Shown here: positions 13,965 to 23,520 of the stretch, in pieces | Layout: each line of letters opens with the position of its first letter | Position numbering within the stretch: position 1 is the stretch's first letter | From: Gammaproteobacteria bacterium | Lineage (GTDB): Bacteria; Pseudomonadota; Gammaproteobacteria; SZUA-152 | Assembly: GCA_022340845.1 (NCBI GenBank) | Contig: JAJDNG010000007.1 | Span: 1 to 32,324 of the forward strand | Direction: 5' to 3' | DNA length: 32,324 nucleotides | Notes under the pieces: model-generated | Seen by the model: only the letters and a program-made list of their open reading frames with translations | Told to the model about the DNA's origin: nothing | Databases searched by the model: none | Made by a program: the position numbers and the translations under genes

Positions 13965-15770
13965 ATGCAGAATACCAAGCAGTTTACCTGGCAAGGTATG
14001 TTAAACATTGCCGGCGAACACCAAAAAGCGTTGTTGATCGCCAATATGCTCGCTTTGCTGGCGGTGGTGTGCAGCGTGCCTATCCCGTTACTAATGCCTT
14101 TGTTAGTCGATGAGGTGTTGTTAAACCAGCCAGGGCCGTTGGTGGAATTTGTCGGCTCCCTGTTTCCCTTCGCCTGGCAGGGACCTACTTTGTTTATTCT
14201 ATTTACTTTACTGATTACTATTGTGTTGCGCACGGCCATGATTTTGCTAAACGTGTGGCAACTGAGCAAGTTTACCCTGGTGGCCAAAGACATAACGTAC
14301 CGAATGCGCCGGGCTTTGCTGGAGCGCCTGCAATCCATCTCCATGTCGGAATACGAAACCCTGGGTAGCGGCACGGTAAGCTCTCATTTTGTTACCGATA
14401 TCAATGCGGTTGATACTTTTGTCGGCGAAACCATCAGTAAGGCCTTGGTTGCCGCTTTGAGTTTAGTGGGGATCAGCATAGTGTTGGTGTGGATGCATTG
14501 GCAACTGGCGCTATTCATTTTGCTCATGAATCCCCTGGTGATTTATTTTACGGTGAGCTTCGGCAAAAAAGTCAAGCACCTCAAGAAAAATGAAAACAAG
14601 GCTTTCGAGGCATTTCAGGAATCGTTAACGGAAACCCTGGATGCTATTCATCAAATCCGTGCCAGTAATCGCGAACGTCACTACCTCAACGGCGTTATCG
14701 ACAAAGCCAAAAACATCCGCGCGCATTCGGCTGCTTATTCCTGGAAAAGCGACGCGGCCGGGCGGTTGTCGTTTGGTATTTTTCTGTTTGGATTCGATAT
14801 CTTTCGTGCCGTGGCCATGTTAATGGTGGTTTTCTCGGATTTATCCGTGGGTCAGATGATGGCGGTGTTTGGGTATTTGTGGTTTATGATGGCGCCGGTA
14901 CAGGAACTGCTGAACATCCAATACGCGTATTTTGCGGCCAAAGCGGCGCTAATACGGCTCAACCGCTTGTGGTCTTTACAAAACGAACCTCAATATCCGC
15001 ATATTCATAATCCATTTAAAAATAAACATACCGTTTCGCTTAAAGTGGAGAATTTATCGTTTCGCTATCAAGGGGACGATGGGGACAAGCAAGTGGATAA
15101 TGTCTTGCACGATGTGAATCTCACCATCCGAGCCGGCGAAAAAGTGGCCTTAGTGGGTGCCAGTGGCGGAGGCAAATCCACTTTAGTGCAGGCGATCCTG
15201 GGAATGTACCCACCGCAATCCGGACAAGTGTATTTTGATGAGATACCAGTGACCCAGATTGGATGGGATGTAGTGAGGGACAACGTGGCCACGGTATTGC
15301 AACATCCTGCCATGTTTAATGATAGTGTACGAATGAATCTGACCATGGGACAGGTGATTGACGATAACAAACTCTATGAAGCCCTGGAGATTGCCCAACT
15401 GCGTACTACCATAGAAAATCTGCCGCACAAACTGGATACGATTATCGGTCGGCAAGGGGTACGGTTGTCCGGCGGGCAAAAACAACGTTTGGCAATTGCC
15501 CGCATGGTGCTAACCAACCCTAAAGTGGTTATTCTGGATGAGGCCACCTCGGCTCTGGATACCGAAACGGAAGCGCAATTGCACACTGCGCTGGCTGAGT
15601 TTCTAAATAATCGCTCCACGCTTATAATTGCCCATCGACTCAGCGCCGTGAAACAAGCCGACAGGGTGTACGTTTTTGAAGACGGCCACATTATCGAAGA
15701 GGGAGTACATGAAGAGTTGGTGCAAACCAACGGCTTGTATAGCCGTTTATACAGCACTCAGTATCATTAA
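13965..15770 (+). CDS. ABC transporter, fused permease/ATPase
   Basis: Walker A GASGGGKST, signature LSGGQKQRLAIAR, Walker B VVILDEATSALD, H-loop IAHRLS. Confidence 0.93.
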   Translation: MQNTKQFTWQGMLNIAGEHQKALLIANMLALLAVVCSVPIPLLMPLLVDEVLLNQPGPLVEFVGSLFPFAWQGPTLFILFTLLITIVLRTAMILLNVWQLSKFTLVAKDITYRMRRALLERLQSISMSEYETLGSGTVSSHFVTDINAVDTFVGETISKALVAALSLVGISIVLVWMHWQLALFILLMNPLVIYFTVSFGKKVKHLKKNENKAFEAFQESLTETLDAIHQIRASNRERHYLNGVIDKAKNIRAHSAAYSWKSDAAGRLSFGIFLFGFDIFRAVAMLMVVFSDLSVGQMMAVFGYLWFMMAPVQELLNIQYAYFAAKAALIRLNRLWSLQNEPQYPHIHNPFKNKHTVSLKVENLSFRYQGDDGDKQVDNVLHDVNLTIRAGEKVALVGASGGGKSTLVQAILGMYPPQSGQVYFDEIPVTQIGWDVVRDNVATVLQHPAMFNDSVRMNLTMGQVIDDNKLYEALEIAQLRTTIENLPHKLDTIIGRQGVRLSGGQKQRLAIARMVLTNPKVVILDEATSALDTETEAQLHTALAEFLNNRSTLIIAHRLSAVKQADRVYVFEDGHIIEEGVHEELVQTNGLYSRLYSTQYH

Positions 15771-15855
15771 CACACAGCTGCAATCTCGGGACGAGCGCCT
15801 GCCAGGATTCTTCACGAGAACGTATTAATCCATTACAAAATTAAAAAAGATAACC

Positions 15856-17070
15856 ATGAGCAATCAAGACCAGGAACCGATAAAAACCATCAAATTGAAA
15901 AATGCCGAAGTCACTCTACTCGGCACCGCTCACATCTCCCGCGCCAGCGCAGACAAAGTCAAGGAGTTGCTGGATTCAGGGCATTATGACTCGGTCGCGG
16001 TGGAACTGTGCCCCAGCCGGCATAACGCCATCATCAATCCCGATGCCTTGTCAAAGATGAACTTGTTCCAGGTAATTCGCGAAGGTAAAGCATCCCTGGT
16101 GGCGGCCAATCTGGCACTGGGGGCGTTTCAACAGCGCATGGCGGAGCAGTTGGATATCAAACCCGGTGCGGAAATGCGGGTGGCCATCGATTCGGCCACC
16201 GAGATGCACATCCCGGTATCGCTGATCGACCGGGAAATTTCCGTAACCCTGAAACGCGTGTATCGCAACGTACCGTGGTGGCAGCGCATGAACATTGTGG
16301 CCGGTTTATTTGCCAGCGTGATTTCACGCCAGGAAGTCTCTGAAGAAGAAATCGAAAAACTCAAAGAAGGTGACATTCTGGAGTCGGCGTTTTCGCAATT
16401 CGCGCAAGAAGCGGAACACTTGTATAAACCGCTGGTTGACGAACGTGATCAATACATGGCCGCCAGATTAATCCAGGAAGATGCGCCCGGCAAATATCAA
16501 CGCATATTGGCGGTAGTGGGAGCGGGGCACTTAAAAGGCATAGCCAACTATCTTACTCAGTGGCAGGCGGAACAGGATCCAGGCCATACGCAAAATACTT
16601 TATCCCGCCTGGATGCCGTTCCGCCTGGCAGTCAATGGATTAAATTCATTCCCTGGGTGATTGTGGCGCTGATTATTACCGGTTTTGTCATCGGTTTTTC
16701 CCGCAGCCCGGATTTGGGATTTCAATTGGTATTGGATTGGGTCCTCATTAACGGCGGGTTGTGCGCGCTGGGGACGTTAATCGCCTTTGGCCATCCAATT
16801 ACCGTTATCGGCGCGTTTTTAGCCGCTCCTCTCACTTCCTTGAATCCCACCATCGGTGCCGGCATGGTCACGGCCGCCATCGAGACCTACATGCGAAAAC
16901 CCACCGTGGAAGATTTCAGCCGTTTGCGCAGCGACACCACGCATTTAAAGGGATGGTGGGGTAATCGGGTGACCCGCGTCCTGTTGGTTTTTATTCTCAG
17001 CACCCTGGGCTCCGCAGCTGGCACATATTTGGCAGGATTCAGGATAATTGAGCGTTTATCTTCATCTTAG
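15856..17070 (+). CDS. TraB/PrgY-family membrane protein
   Basis: VTLLGTAHISRASADKV, VAVELCPSRH, VVGAGHLKGI and four C-terminal TM segments. Confidence 0.9.
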   Translation: MSNQDQEPIKTIKLKNAEVTLLGTAHISRASADKVKELLDSGHYDSVAVELCPSRHNAIINPDALSKMNLFQVIREGKASLVAANLALGAFQQRMAEQLDIKPGAEMRVAIDSATEMHIPVSLIDREISVTLKRVYRNVPWWQRMNIVAGLFASVISRQEVSEEEIEKLKEGDILESAFSQFAQEAEHLYKPLVDERDQYMAARLIQEDAPGKYQRILAVVGAGHLKGIANYLTQWQAEQDPGHTQNTLSRLDAVPPGSQWIKFIPWVIVALIITGFVIGFSRSPDLGFQLVLDWVLINGGLCALGTLIAFGHPITVIGAFLAAPLTSLNPTIGAGMVTAAIETYMRKPTVEDFSRLRSDTTHLKGWWGNRVTRVLLVFILSTLGSAAGTYLAGFRIIERLSSS

Positions 17071-17150: not shown

Positions 17151-17156
17151 TATAAT
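17151..17156 (+). promoter_or_regulatory. -10 element TATAAT upstream of the DUF6502-like gene
   Basis: Exact TATAAT; the -35 is weak (ttttcc at 17-bp spacing). Confidence 0.5.
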
Positions 17157-17164
17157 GGTACCTT

Positions 17165-17186
17165 TTTTGGGAGAGGGTTCCCAAAA
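17165..17186. promoter_or_regulatory. operator-like inverted repeat TTTTGGGA-N6-TCCCAAAA
   Basis: Perfect 8-bp arms immediately downstream of TATAAT and 9 bp before the ATG. Confidence 0.75.
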
Positions 17187-17194
17187 TTGTCATT

Positions 17195-18046
17195 ATGAGC
17201 AGCGAATTGACGTCACAAAAAGCGCTTTTTAAAGCGGTATACAAATTAATGCGCTCCCTGGTACGCATTCTGTTACGTAATGGCGTTCCCTACGGAGCAT
17301 TTACTGATATTGCCAAACGCGCGTACGTGGATGTGGCAATGAAAGAATTTGGGGTGCCCGGCAAAAAGCAAACCAATTCCCGGGTGGCTACTATCACTGG
17401 CTTATCCCGTAAAGAAATCCAGCGCGTTATTAGTCTCAATCTCAGCGGTGATCAGGAAAAAGATATGGTGGTGCGCTACAATCGCGCCGCCCGAGTGGTG
17501 TACGGCTGGGTACATGACAGAACCTATGCTGGCCAGGATGGCGATTCTGCCATTTTGCCGTTTGAGGGGGATACTCCCAGTTTTAGCTCCCTGGTCAGAA
17601 CTTACAGTGGCGATGTGCCGCCGCGCGCCATATTGGATGAATTACTGCAAGTGGGCGTGGCGCAGCGGCTGGATAATGGAAACATTAAGCTGTTGGAACG
17701 GGCTTATATCCCCACCAAAGGCGAAGCGGAGAAACTGGTGTTATTGGGCCGGGACGTGGCAGGTCTGATTTCCACGATGGATAAAAACATTCACGGCGTG
17801 CACGACATCCTTTATTTTCAGCGTAAAGTGTTTTACGACAATCTATCCGAAGAAGCGGCCGTGGAATTTCACGAGTTTTTACTCAACAAAGGCCAGCCGC
17901 TGTTGGAAGAGTTTGATCAATGGATGGCCCAGCGCGACCGCGATGTGAATCCTGATGCCGGCGGCAGCGGCCGCAAAGCCGTTGGCGTGGGTTTGTATTA
18001 TTTCGAAGAAGAACTTCAACAAGATCCTCCGGAGTCCTCCTCATGA
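17195..18046 (+). CDS. DUF6502-like protein, putative HTH transcriptional regulator
   Basis: 283 aa; N-terminal KAVYKLMRSLVRILLRNGVPYGAFTDIAKRAYVDVA...NSRVATITGLSRKEIQRVI is typical of this family and contains an HTH-like segment. Confidence 0.75.
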   Translation: MSSELTSQKALFKAVYKLMRSLVRILLRNGVPYGAFTDIAKRAYVDVAMKEFGVPGKKQTNSRVATITGLSRKEIQRVISLNLSGDQEKDMVVRYNRAARVVYGWVHDRTYAGQDGDSAILPFEGDTPSFSSLVRTYSGDVPPRAILDELLQVGVAQRLDNGNIKLLERAYIPTKGEAEKLVLLGRDVAGLISTMDKNIHGVHDILYFQRKVFYDNLSEEAAVEFHEFLLNKGQPLLEEFDQWMAQRDRDVNPDAGGSGRKAVGVGLYYFEEELQQDPPESSS

Positions 18047-19446
18047 ATTGTTCCTTGTTACGCTTTTTTTCATTAAGCGCGTCCTTAAGCATAGTGCTCA
18101 GTTTGCTCGTCGCGGCGTGCAGTGGTGGTGAATCCGGCACCGGTTTCGGCGGTAGTTACCCCAAAGTGTCTGTGGGAGTGATTACCGGTTTCGGCAGTGT
18201 GTTTGTCAATGGCGTTGAATTCGATACTTCCCGGGCTGAGATCAATGTCAATGAAGCTATAGCCAGTGAAGAGGACTTGGCCATCGGCATGGTAGTGAGC
18301 GTGGTGGGTTCTACCGACCAATCTCAGGTTAGCGGCAGCGCTGATGCGATATATTACGAAAGTGAAGTGTGCGGCATAGTCAACCAAAACGATCAGCCTG
18401 ACCAATTGGAAATTATGGGCCAGACCGTAAAATACGATAGTGAAACGGTGTTCGATAGCAGTATTGATACCGTGGCGTCAGTTGCGGAAATTCCGGTGGG
18501 CGCTGTAGTGGAAATCACTGGATACCGCACTGGCGACAACAGCTTGCATGCCACTCAGATTACTTTGCTACAGAGCCAGTATAATGACGGCGAGCAATTG
18601 ATCGTTAACGGTGTTGTGACCGCCGGTGTCTCGTCCGGGAAATTTTCGATGGGCACACTCACGGTGGTGGTTGACGATGTAACGCAATTTATTAACCTCC
18701 CGAACAACCAGATCACACCTGGCATGGCGATAAAAGTTAAAAGCAAGCGGGGTCTGGTGAATACTAATGAGTTGCTCGCAGATCAAATTCAATTGAACAA
18801 AAATCAATACGTGGTCGCAGGCAATGTTCTGGAAATCGAAGGCATTGTGATGAATCCGAATCTGCAAGCCAATGAATTTCAGTTAAACGGATATACCGTC
18901 TATTTTTCAGCTCAAACCAGGTTTGTCGATGGCGCTGAGGATAATCTGGCCGATGGCGTAAAAGTGGAAGTGGAAGGTGTATTGCTGTCGGACAATCAGC
19001 TGGAAGCTGGCGAAATTACTTTTCGCAAATCAGCTAAAATCGATTTAATTGCACCAGTGACTTCCATCAATATTGCTGACAACCAAGTAAACCTCTCGGG
19101 CGTCAACGTACGACTGACCAATAGAACTTTGTTGTAAGACGACGATAGAATCACCAAAATCAGGCAATTCTCGCTGGAGGATCTTAGCGACGGCGATAGA
19201 GTCAAAATTAAGGCTTTCCGGGATAACCTTACTCAGCAAATTATAGCGATCCAGTTCCGACGCGTAGAAGCGCAATCCGCAGATTCAACCTTTGAAATTA
19301 CGGGTATTTTGGATGAATTGAACAATGCGCAGGCGATTATCGCCGGTGTCGCCGTCGATACTGCAGGTTTGTCTCCCGTGCTCACCAATGCCGACGTTGG
19401 AACTGATGTTACGGTTGTCGGTACGATCCCCATTTCCACCCAATAG
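18043..19446 (+). pseudogene. DUF5666-like lipoprotein gene interrupted by an in-frame TAA (19135-19137)
   Basis: Lipobox LLVAACSGG; repeated ~70-80 aa beta-rich units. The frame continues past the TAA for 102 codons to TAG 19444-19446, with continuing DUF5666-like sequence. Intact part is 18043-19137 (364 aa). Confidence 0.7.
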
Positions 19447-19503
19447 CCTTTCGTCCGGGTCCTGCAACTATCTCTTCAATGACCAACCGCCACATCGTGT
19501 CTA

Positions 19504-19539
19504 CGGTGTGGCCAAGAACGCTTCACCGCCTTCTTTTTT
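19504..19539 (+). terminator. weak candidate terminator after the DUF5666-1 frame
   Basis: CGGTG...CACCG followed by ttctttttt; only 5-bp arms. Confidence 0.3.
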
Positions 19540-19638
19540 CCAGCGTGTTCACTTAATTTCTTGTAAATCATAACGTTAAACTCCTTTTCCCAATATCACG
19601 CGTAATCCGTTTGGAACACAAACTGCGAATAATCCCTA

Positions 19639-19666
19639 TTGACGGTCGTTTGCTGCAGTGTATAAT
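19639..19666 (+). promoter_or_regulatory. sigma70-like promoter of the second DUF5666 gene
   Basis: TTGACG - 16 bp - TATAAT. Confidence 0.75.
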
Positions 19667-19672
19667 CTTGCA

Positions 19673-19696
19673 TGTTTGGGAATATATTCCCAAACA
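19673..19696. promoter_or_regulatory. 24-bp perfect palindrome, operator-like
   Basis: TGTTTGGGAATATATTCCCAAACA is identical to its reverse complement; sits at the expected +1. Confidence 0.85.
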
Positions 19697-19701
19697 TAGG
19701 C

Positions 19702-19837
19702 TGGGTGTCACTACAGACAGAAACCGTGCACCCATCGCTCGGTAAAGTGGAAAACATTACCGGCATCACGGCAGTAGCACCTACGGGAGGGAGAGGTCAT
19801 GCGAAGGACATGCGATGACAATGGTGTTTCTGCCGTG
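19702..19837 (+). ncRNA. structured 5' leader: three consecutive predicted hairpins
   Basis: TGGGTGT(19702-19708)/GCACCCA(19728-19734, one G-U); CGGTAA(19740-19745)/TTACCG(19757-19762); CACGGCAG(19767-19774)/CTGCCGTG(19830-19837) enclosing AGCACC/GGTGTT and GTCAT/ATGAC. Confidence 0.55.
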
Positions 19838-19885
19838 TATTTATCCATTCACACAATCAATATTGTTATCAGAGTTTATCTCTAA
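19799..19885 (+). CDS. possible leader peptide (28 aa)
   Basis: MRRTCDDNGVSAVYLSIHTINIVIRVYL*, preceded by GGGAGGGAGAGG; lies inside the structured leader. Confidence 0.35.
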   Translation: MRRTCDDNGVSAVYLSIHTINIVIRVYL

Positions 19886-20045
19886 CCATTAAAACTGATG
19901 CGAAATCACGTCCATCAATAAATATGCCGAACCAGCGCATGAAGCGAGTCGGTTATAACCCAGGTATAAAAACTGTCGGCGATCTAATTACAAAATAACA
20001 GCCCTGTTGCAATGGGCATAACCTATTTTTCCAAGAGGAGGCGTT

Positions 20046-21521
20046 ATGAACTACAGACATCTTTTACTACTCGTCACTCTGTCGTCAACGATGGCATTGA
20101 TCGGCGGTTGTGGTGATTCCGGTAATACCGGTAACGCCAGTTCTTCAGAATCGATTAAATCCGTCGGTGTAGTCAGCAGTGTAAACAGTGGCCAAAGCAT
20201 TAATGTCAACGGTGTAACATACGCTACCGGCCAGAGTGAAGTTGTCAATGAAGAAGATGGCGAGCTCGATGTGGGTATGGTGGTCACGGTAGACGGTACT
20301 ATGGACGAGGATGCTAACACCGGGGAAGCACACAATATCCACTATGAAGCTGAAATCAAAGGCGTAGTGATTGTCAACGATGTCATGGGCAGCAATTCGC
20401 TGAACGTGATGGGGCAGACGGTTCTGGTGGACGATTTGACAATGTTTGTAAGTGAATATCCAAATTACGCCACCTTGGATTCCATCCCGATCAATGCTTA
20501 TGTGGAAGTCAGCGGACTAATGCTCAACGACGGCACATTAAAAGCTACACGTATTGAATTGGAATCGGAAACGTATATGGCGGGAATGCTACTTAAGGTC
20601 AAAGGTAAAATCACTGACGTAGGTGACATGTATTTCACCATAAATGATCTCACTGTAATGTATAACGACACTACGGATTTCATTAATTTAAGCAAAGAAG
20701 ATTTGATGGCGGATATCTGCGTAAAAGTGTTAAGTACACAAGCATTCGACCCCAATACCATGAATTTAACCGCTGACAGTGTCCAAATGAAACACAATGG
20801 CGTGGACGCTGATCATGGTGAAAAAGTGGAGTTGTACGGTGAGGTGACCAGCGATGGAGTGATTGACAATGTGTTCGTATTAAATGACCAGCCGGTGATG
20901 CTTACCGACCGTACGCACTTTGTGCATGGCACCATGGCGGACATTGTCAAAGGCGCAATGCTGCAGGCCAAAGGCCACCTGGATGAAAATAACGTACTGG
21001 TTGCGGAAAAAATTAAATTCCAGAAACCGCATAATGTCATAATCTCCGGTATTGTCGATGCAGTGAATGCGGAAGAAAATTACCTGCAGGTCATGGGCGC
21101 CATGGTTTATGTGGACGAAAACACCTGGTTGAAAGACCATCCCCACAATGGCGGTGAAATCCCAAACAATCCTGATCCTGTGGCTGGTACTAATGAAATG
21201 TTCGCTTTTGGTCTGAGTGATATTGAAGCTGGGAATTTTGTCATGGTTCACGGTGCTTATATGCAGCAAAAACAAGCCATTGAGGCGCGCAAACTCCAGC
21301 GTAAAAAACCGGATCATCCGGCGCAAGTCCATGTGGCAGGTCCGGTAACCGCTATTGACAGCGATAACAATCTTCTGGAAATCGCCGGAGTAAAAGTCGA
21401 TATATCCGGTTTTACCAACCTGACTCCCAGTTTAGGAGATAGGGCCAGTGCCACCGGTGGTTACGATCAAGAATCCATGATCTTAATTCCAATGGAAATG
21501 GATATCGAACCCAAAGAATAA
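20046..21521 (+). CDS. DUF5666-like multi-repeat lipoprotein
   Basis: Lipobox ALIGGCG; about six repeats such as VGVVSSVNSGQSINVNGVTY, IKGVVIVNDVMGSNSLNVMGQTV, ISGIVDAVNAEENYLQVMGAMV; SD aagaggagg. Confidence 0.8.
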   Translation: MNYRHLLLLVTLSSTMALIGGCGDSGNTGNASSSESIKSVGVVSSVNSGQSINVNGVTYATGQSEVVNEEDGELDVGMVVTVDGTMDEDANTGEAHNIHYEAEIKGVVIVNDVMGSNSLNVMGQTVLVDDLTMFVSEYPNYATLDSIPINAYVEVSGLMLNDGTLKATRIELESETYMAGMLLKVKGKITDVGDMYFTINDLTVMYNDTTDFINLSKEDLMADICVKVLSTQAFDPNTMNLTADSVQMKHNGVDADHGEKVELYGEVTSDGVIDNVFVLNDQPVMLTDRTHFVHGTMADIVKGAMLQAKGHLDENNVLVAEKIKFQKPHNVIISGIVDAVNAEENYLQVMGAMVYVDENTWLKDHPHNGGEIPNNPDPVAGTNEMFAFGLSDIEAGNFVMVHGAYMQQKQAIEARKLQRKKPDHPAQVHVAGPVTAIDSDNNLLEIAGVKVDISGFTNLTPSLGDRASATGGYDQESMILIPMEMDIEPKE

Positions 21522-21554: not shown

Positions 21555-21579
21555 AAGGCGGTTTCGACCGCCTTTTTTT
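21555..21579 (+). terminator. Rho-independent terminator
   Basis: AAGGCGGTttcgACCGCCTTTTTTT. Confidence 0.92.
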
Positions 21580-21702: not shown

Positions 21703-23520
21703 ATGCCCGCACCTTTTAAACGCACCGAAACCCCCAGCGCGGACCGCAATGCCTTGTATAACCTTAATGCATTGCTACCTTACATTTGGGAATTCCGTGG
21801 CCGCGTATCGTTGGCACTGGCCTGCTTGATATTCTCGAAGCTGGCGACCGTGGGTATACCCATTACTTTAAAGGAAATCGTAGATAGCCTGGACAGCACG
21901 ATCACCACAACCATCGTGTTGCCGGTGACCTTGTTGTTTGCCTACGGATTATTGCGCCTGGCCAGCTCTTTTTTTAATGAAATGCGGGATGTATTATTTA
22001 CCCGGGTGCGTTATCGCGCCATGCGCCGCCTGACCATACGCACCCTGGAGCATCTGCACAACCTTTCGCTGCGTTTTCATTTGGAAAGAAAAACAGGTGC
22101 TCTCAGCAGCGACTTGCAGCGCGGCGCCGCCAGTTTGAGTTCGCTGCTGAACTATTTTATTTTCAGTATCATCCCAGTATCCGTGGAGTTTTTATTAATC
22201 GCCGGCTATTTGTTTGTGCAATACGATGCTGTGTTTACCGTTATTATCGGCGCTAGTGTTATTGTCTATATTGTCTTTACCTTCAAGGTAATGAACTGGC
22301 GCGTGGAATACCGCCATCAAATGAACCGGTTGGAATCCCAGGCCAACAACGAAGCCATAGACAGCTTAATCAATTACGAAACGGTTAAATACTTCAACAA
22401 CGAAACGTTCGAAGCCAGGCGCTGCAATGACACTTTGGATCAGTGGGAAGATAAAGCGGTACTGAGTCAGTTTTCCATGTCCGCCCTGAATTTCGGCCAA
22501 GGGGCCATCATTGCGGTTGCGATCACCTTCATTATGTTTTTCGCCGCTAACCAAGTGGCGCATGACAAGATGACCCTGGGTGAGTTGGTGATGATCAACA
22601 CTTTCTTGCTGCAATTGTTTATACCGTTGAATTTTCTCGGCGTCGTTTATCGCTCCATACGCTACTCGTTAGCGGATATGGACCGCTTGGTGAAATTACT
22701 GGAACAGGAACCTGAAATCAACGATGTCCCGCAGGCCAAGTCATTGGTCATCCGGGAAGGGGGGGTGCGTTTCGAACACGTGCAATTCGCCTATCAAGCC
22801 GAACGGCAAATATTATTTGACGTGGATTTTACCATCGAGCCAGGTCAAAAAGTTGCCGTCGTCGGGCACAGTGGTGCCGGTAAATCCACTCTGGCTCGAT
22901 TAATGTTCCGCTTCTACGATGTGACCGGCGGCAGGATAACCATAGACGATCAAGACATACGCAACGTGACCCAGGAAAGCCTGCGCCGCGCCATCGGCAT
23001 TGTCCCCCAGGACACGGTGTTGTTTAACGATACTATTTACTACAACCTGGCCTACGCTAATCCCGAAGCCAGCAAACAGGATGTCATTAACGCCGCCAAA
23101 AAAGCGCACATCCACGAATTCATCCATTCATTACCGGATCAATATGACACCGTCGTGGGCGAGCGTGGCTTGAAACTTTCCGGGGGTGAAAAACAGCGCG
23201 TCGCCATTGCCAGAACCATCTTAAAAGACCCCAAAATCCTCATATTCGACGAAGCCACTTCCGCCCTGGACACCAAAAGCGAACAAGCCATTTTAAAAGA
23301 GCTCAAAGCTACTGCGGTAAATCATACTACGTTGGTTATTGCCCATAGACTATCCACCATTGTGGATGCTGACCGTATACTGGTATTGGATTCAGGAAAA
23401 GTGCTGGAACACGGCAATCATAATCAACTGCTGGAAAAACAAGGTGTATATGCAAACATGTGGACGTTGCAACAAAAAGAGCAGAAAAAACTGGCAGACT
23501 CGGCTGAGGAAGGGAAATAG
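21703..23520 (+). CDS. Atm1-type (heavy-metal/Fe-S class) ABC exporter, fused permease/ATPase
   Basis: NYETVKYFNNE, Walker A GHSGAGKST, LSGGEKQRVAIART, ILIFDEATSALDTKSE. Confidence 0.9.
   Translation: MPAPFKRTETPSADRNALYNLNALLPYIWEFRGRVSLALACLIFSKLATVGIPITLKEIVDSLDSTITTTIVLPVTLLFAYGLLRLASSFFNEMRDVLFTRVRYRAMRRLTIRTLEHLHNLSLRFHLERKTGALSSDLQRGAASLSSLLNYFIFSIIPVSVEFLLIAGYLFVQYDAVFTVIIGASVIVYIVFTFKVMNWRVEYRHQMNRLESQANNEAIDSLINYETVKYFNNETFEARRCNDTLDQWEDKAVLSQFSMSALNFGQGAIIAVAITFIMFFAANQVAHDKMTLGELVMINTFLLQLFIPLNFLGVVYRSIRYSLADMDRLVKLLEQEPEINDVPQAKSLVIREGGVRFEHVQFAYQAERQILFDVDFTIEPGQKVAVVGHSGAGKSTLARLMFRFYDVTGGRITIDDQDIRNVTQESLRRAIGIVPQDTVLFNDTIYYNLAYANPEASKQDVINAAKKAHIHEFIHSLPDQYDTVVGERGLKLSGGEKQRVAIARTILKDPKILIFDEATSALDTKSEQAILKELKATAVNHTTLVIAHRLSTIVDADRILVLDSGKVLEHGNHNQLLEKQGVYANMWTLQQKEQKKLADSAEEGK

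Follow-up and report, generated by a model that had tools for sequence, protein, structure and literature searches.

The window, the whole stretch of 32,324 nucleotides of DNA that was analyzed, carries a gene pair that has the look of a genuine control circuit for envelope proteins, one not described before. We interpret it, with a probability of about 72%, as an autoregulated envelope-lipoprotein module in which a protein of the DUF6502 family represses both of its targets. The cytosolic regulator, probably dimeric, would bind the palindrome WTTGGGA-N6-TCCCAAW and thereby block RNA polymerase at its own operon, where the regulator would be translated together with a partner lipoprotein, and at a separately transcribed DUF5666 paralog placed behind the same operator. 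One switch would then govern a set of lipid-anchored envelope lipoproteins made of chains of predicted OB folds, and the coupled partner alone among them has a GxGTG peptide. Direct binding of the palindrome by DUF6502 is highly probable, and repression rather than activation is quite probable, because the operator covers near-consensus promoters in relatives; a cytosolic signal would relieve the repression. Gene order, gene overlap, operator, promoter geometry, and motif distribution were read directly from the sequence.

Neither DUF6502 nor PF20112 was found in the literature searched, a scope outside which most subscription papers and preprints lie, and DUF5666 is mentioned there only in passing (PMC10714799, PMC12455991, PMC12894976, PMC13255231). 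The regulator family thus acquires a partner and a DNA target as well as a predicted function, and DUF5666 gains a regulatory context.

The regulator and its lipoproteins

The regulator gene (17195..18046, + strand) encodes 283 amino acids and matches Pfam PF20112 (DUF6502) over model positions 2 to 264 of 268 (E = 9.5e-80; 267.7 bits for a curated cut-off of 27). Its structure model (pLDDT 84, pTM 0.73) shows a helix-turn-helix (HTH) at residues 61 to 80, a winged-helix-like segment at residues 130 to 166, and two long C-terminal helices. The predicted HTH, encoded at 17375..17434 (+ strand), contains the sequence TGLSRKE, which is near-invariant among relatives. No transmembrane-like segment was found in the protein, which is predicted to be cytosolic. 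Neither sequence nor fold searches gave a significant match in the PDB, the fold search returning only weak HTH-like and methyltransferase matches below significance.

The stop codon of the regulator overlaps the start of the first lipoprotein gene (18043..19137, + strand) in an ATGA at positions 18043 to 18046, as the first-pass annotation had read it. The second paralog that it described, intact and with its own promoter and the common operator, is also present (20046..21521, + strand), the palindromes lying at 17166 to 17185 and 19675 to 19694. Both proteins match DUF5666 (PF18914), with 98.6 and 142.3 bits for a curated cut-off of 27, and have a hydrophobic N terminus with a lipobox (LVAAC and LIGGC); they are predicted lipoproteins, their envelope location being deduced from the lipobox. 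The count of about six repeats in each holds for lipoprotein 2, with its six DUF5666 stretches, and fails for lipoprotein 1, with three significant repeats and one more across its in-frame TAA (19135 to 19137). The frame stays open from there to 19446 (19138..19446, + strand), and since the 102 codons past the TAA are still homologous to the C termini of intact relatives (E = 9e-11), lipoprotein 1 appears to be cut short by this codon, which may be real or an assembly error. Naturally short coupled relatives exist (311 to 347 amino acids), and the truncated protein may therefore still work.

Lipoprotein 2 was confidently modeled (pLDDT 88) as a string of small beta domains; its top Foldseek neighbors include cold-shock, S1, SSB, and PilY2 OB folds, but with low whole-chain TM-scores. 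The DUF5666 repeats are predicted to be tandem OB folds. In a PDB sequence search with DUF5666, CcmE and a 4gnx chain were weak matches; a carbonic anhydrase match (E = 8e-5) was judged to be a chance match in an alignment of low conservation. PilY2, CcmE, and YgiW-type proteins are periplasmic proteins with OB folds. The DUF5666 lipoproteins resemble them in their predicted folds and in having PilY2 among their structural neighbors, but they would consist of several tandem OB folds on a lipid anchor, and none of these families includes them at the sequence level (the Pfam score for CcmE, E = 0.017, is below the cut-off). Other lipoproteins adjoin or overlap DUF5666 matches in two loci (L252:1946-3778 and L069:9557-10540) and may resemble DUF4382.

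Lipoprotein 2 is preceded by an untranslated leader of about 350 nt (19695..20045, + strand), longer than the leaders of other uncoupled paralogs; an Rfam search of the whole window, this leader included, gave no match. A hairpin followed by a T run, resembling an intrinsic terminator, stands at the end of the module (21555..21574, + strand). The ABC transporters and the TraB/PrgY-family gene that flank the module (window positions 13965 to 17070 and 21703 to 23520) have counterparts in the same place in loci L097 and L098, indicating that the module occupies a stable place in this lineage.

The first-pass proposal would have failed had the two families not co-occurred beyond chance, but they do. 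A survey of 291 genomes of the class with Pfam models found DUF6502 in 79, DUF5666 in 74, and both in 67 (odds ratio, 164; Fisher test, P = 7e-45). An independent scan by DUF6502 peptide patterns alone, without selecting for DUF5666, yielded 80 loci from several phyla, and DUF5666 was directly downstream of DUF6502 in 71 of the 74 with enough sequence. When profiles built from the window proteins and their relatives were used for counts over about 120 loci, the stop-start overlap was of exactly 4 bp in 46 of 93 pairs, and 14 more had a gap of less than 20 bp. The module is found in Pseudomonadota, Nitrospirota, Myxococcota, Thermodesulfobacteriota, and Binatota, and its cultured, named cases include Methylocystis iwaonis, where DUF6502 precedes DUF5666 with a 4-bp overlap, and Rhizobium sp. 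C104. Clustering of the genes around the modules revealed no third conserved neighbor, and the genes immediately 3′ of DUF5666 had no common theme.

Operators and promoter geometry

The palindrome search identified TTTGGGAGAGGGTTCCCAAA (operator 1, 17166..17185, no strand assigned) and the perfect palindrome TTTGGGAATATATTCCCAAA (operator 2, 19675..19694, no strand assigned), which begin 8 to 9 nt past their TATAAT boxes. The regulator promoter has its predicted -10 at 17151..17156 (+ strand), with the same spacing to the operator as in the second promoter, and a weak -35; the promoter of lipoprotein 2, TTGACG-16-TATAAT (19639..19666, + strand), agrees with the consensus at 11 of 12 positions. 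Allowing at most one mismatch, the 3.84-Mb genome holds three operator sites in total, two of them in this module. Two more palindromes near the operator consensus occur on other contigs of this genome (C86:6767 and C248:5338).

The consensus in relatives is WTTGGGAATATAATCCCAAW, and the pattern WTTGGGA-N6-TCCCAAW is kept across phyla. Of 88 sites, 40 have a TTGAC that starts 14 to 16 nt ahead of the operator, and 6 have one at any other place; of 64 regulator sites, 42 have their first ATG 0 to 4 nt past the operator. Relatives thus usually appear to have a TTGAC-17-TATAAT promoter, in which about 17 nt separate the -35 from a -10 that falls within the operator, with the transcript likely starting at or beside the ATG; an operator over the -10 is as expected for a repressor. 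Across the 291 genomes, 33 of the 36 exact operators with an AT center were in DUF6502 genomes (counted by genome, odds ratio, 32; P = 5e-13), and a reversed control pattern showed no association with DUF6502; the exact AT-centered site is present in only 25 of the 79 DUF6502 genomes. Distant subfamilies carry TG(I/V)HR(K/R)(D/E) in place of TGLSRKE and have variant palindromes, e.g., GTGGGA-N5-TCCCAC; those of Methylocystis and L095, both in distant subfamilies, are GTGGGATTGTGTCCCAC and AGTGGGATTTTTTCCCACT, respectively. This pairing of other HTH sequences with variant palindromes supports direct recognition of the operator by DUF6502.

The operator is not confined to the regulator promoter. 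Unlinked DUF5666 genes on other contigs have it (L181, L186, L190, L194, and L195), and a second DUF5666 gene with its own operator is frequently found upstream of the module in relatives. Many loci lack a clear operator ahead of the regulator; in some of them, it precedes the upstream DUF5666 gene instead, and in some loci no recognizable operator was found near the regulator (e.g., L100 and L112, with at best 10 of 16 matches). In L097 and L098, which are the closest relatives by synteny, two operators stand in tandem, and the first of these contains TATAAT; compared with them, the window seems to retain the TATAAT and only the second operator. The window operators sit just 3′ of the -10, not over it, and occlusion is therefore less direct there.

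This last geometry, which leaves the -10 box uncovered, together with the weak -35 of the regulator promoter, is what could favor DUF6502 as an activator of its own operon and of the DUF5666 paralogs via the same palindrome. We consider this improbable, since most relatives have the -10 of a near-consensus TTGAC-17-TATAAT inside the operator, where a bound protein would block the polymerase, and a promoter so close to consensus needs no activator. The palindrome might also act as an mRNA hairpin that controls translation rather than as a DNA operator: in the window it would fall in the 5′ leader, over the place of the ribosome-binding site, and it is listed as a stem-loop. The position of the -10 speaks against this as well, because a transcript of most relatives would begin past the palindrome. 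Moreover, the same palindrome occurs at separate promoters that lie a long way from the start codon (in the window, 351 nt), and the gene with which it is linked genome-wide encodes a predicted HTH, so that control by a hairpin is very improbable.

Repression by DUF6502, the reading that we prefer, would place the module beside TetR/MarR-type one-component autorepressors, which share an operon with their target. Two marks of such autorepressors, a predicted HTH and a conserved palindromic operator in the own promoter, are present here. The likeness extends to a small cytosolic HTH protein, a palindromic operator over the promoter, and autoregulation with a linked target. Unlike those circuits, the regulator belongs to an uncharacterized family for which no significant match emerged from the PDB searches, and what it would control is neither an enzyme nor a pump but an envelope lipoprotein bearing a shared peptide motif.

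Some operators lie at other genes. In L066 (position 9496) and L064 (position 5874), an extra operator stands ahead of a gene that lies downstream of the module and encodes a P-loop protein (AVVGTAMNAGKTT...), in L066 inside a TTGACA promoter, and this gene is a possible further member of the regulon. In two related genomes (L198 and L199), an exact operator at position 1501 lies within a TTGACA promoter. No coding gene is obvious immediately 3′ of it in either genome, and it may serve a small RNA or a short gene.

The GxGTG peptide of coupled partners

Among DUF5666 proteins with a lipobox, G-x(1,2)-G-T-G is present in 73 of the 86 coupled to a regulator versus 2 of the 35 uncoupled (P = 9e-17); lipobox and motif were tested with regular expressions picked after the motif had been seen, so that the P values describe strength rather than pre-planned tests. 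One of the two uncoupled carriers (L161) is the first DUF5666 gene about 800 bp downstream of a DUF6502 gene. In the window, lipoprotein 1 has the motif as G-E-S-G-T-G (18127..18144, + strand), shortly past its lipobox cysteine (CSGGESGTG); the motif is missing from lipoprotein 2. That it is nearly confined to proteins produced jointly with the regulator is an unexpected rule, and it suggests that partner and regulator act together.

In a tree of DUF5666 paralogs built without the motif, coupled and uncoupled proteins interleave (22 changes, at least 13 of them forced), and among 12 independent pairs the motif went with coupling in an average of 7.7 and against it in 0 (median P = 0.008); for a looser motif, the same comparison gave 8.0 following versus 0.6 opposing. 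Glycine codons vary about as much inside the motif as elsewhere in the genes, indicating conservation of the peptide and not of the DNA. GIGGTG-coding DNA was tried as a genome-wide marker and was too frequent in glycine-rich proteins to be specific alone, and the string GGIGGTG had no relevant occurrence in the literature searched.

Coupled partners of other families also have the peptide. In several loci without a recognized DUF5666, the DUF6502 gene is coupled to another envelope-type protein: one with a bacterial Ig domain in L057, ones with fn3 and Calx-beta in L084 and L243, and ones without a family match in L087 and L090; all five lipoproteins carry a GxGTG-type motif shortly past the lipobox cysteine, with I, L, V, E, or S at the variable places. 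In L244, the downstream protein has GIDGTG repeats at its start and no lipobox in the part seen, and the DUF6502 loci L092, L096, L142, L237, and L240 have no such partner. DUF5666 is therefore not what defines the partner, which appears to be marked rather by a GxGTG peptide in its N-terminal region. The first-pass proposal of an undescribed regulator-lipoprotein module thus stands as regards a module with a shared operator, strongly supported by co-occurrence, adjacency, translational coupling, and operator conservation far beyond chance, and has to be revised as regards DUF5666. The envelope-sensing or envelope-modifying role that it suggested is conjectural: the regulator lacks a membrane segment, and none of the neighbors is a conserved one that would point to a physiological role.

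The peptide could also name the inducing signal. The coupled lipoprotein would report on its own secretion or lipidation: while still in the cytosol, its peptide would bind DUF6502, free the operators, and induce the paralogs upon export failure, which is an extension of autorepression. The motif distribution between coupled and uncoupled paralogs, its association with coupling in the tree comparisons, its occurrence in partners of unrelated families, the selection on the peptide, and a cytosolic regulator made together with its partner are all consistent with this. The interaction itself is hypothetical, proposed from the motif distribution; moreover, the peptide lies past the signal peptide and might act solely in the periplasm, and a few coupled partners lack it. 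Sensing of export is therefore a tentative, rather unlikely proposal, as is the broader one of DUF6502 as a repressor-based cytosolic secretion sensor that several phyla would use with interchangeable partner domains (DUF5666, Ig, fn3/Calx-beta), and a periplasmic role of the peptide is equally open. SecM, VemP, MifM, and NlpE-Cpx are systems that monitor export. The module described here resembles them in that an exported protein is produced together with a cytosolic regulatory element, but it has no visible arrest peptide or two-component system, and its link to export is hypothetical.

The Ig-domain case lies in the same genome as the window, where a second DUF6502 gene is coupled to the gene for this lipoprotein (contig C215, 10504 to 11361 and 11908 to 13587). 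This pair adjoins a divergent gene for a multiheme cytochrome lipoprotein resembling MtrC/MtrF, and proteins that cluster with this cytochrome are found near modules in L112, L164, and L167.
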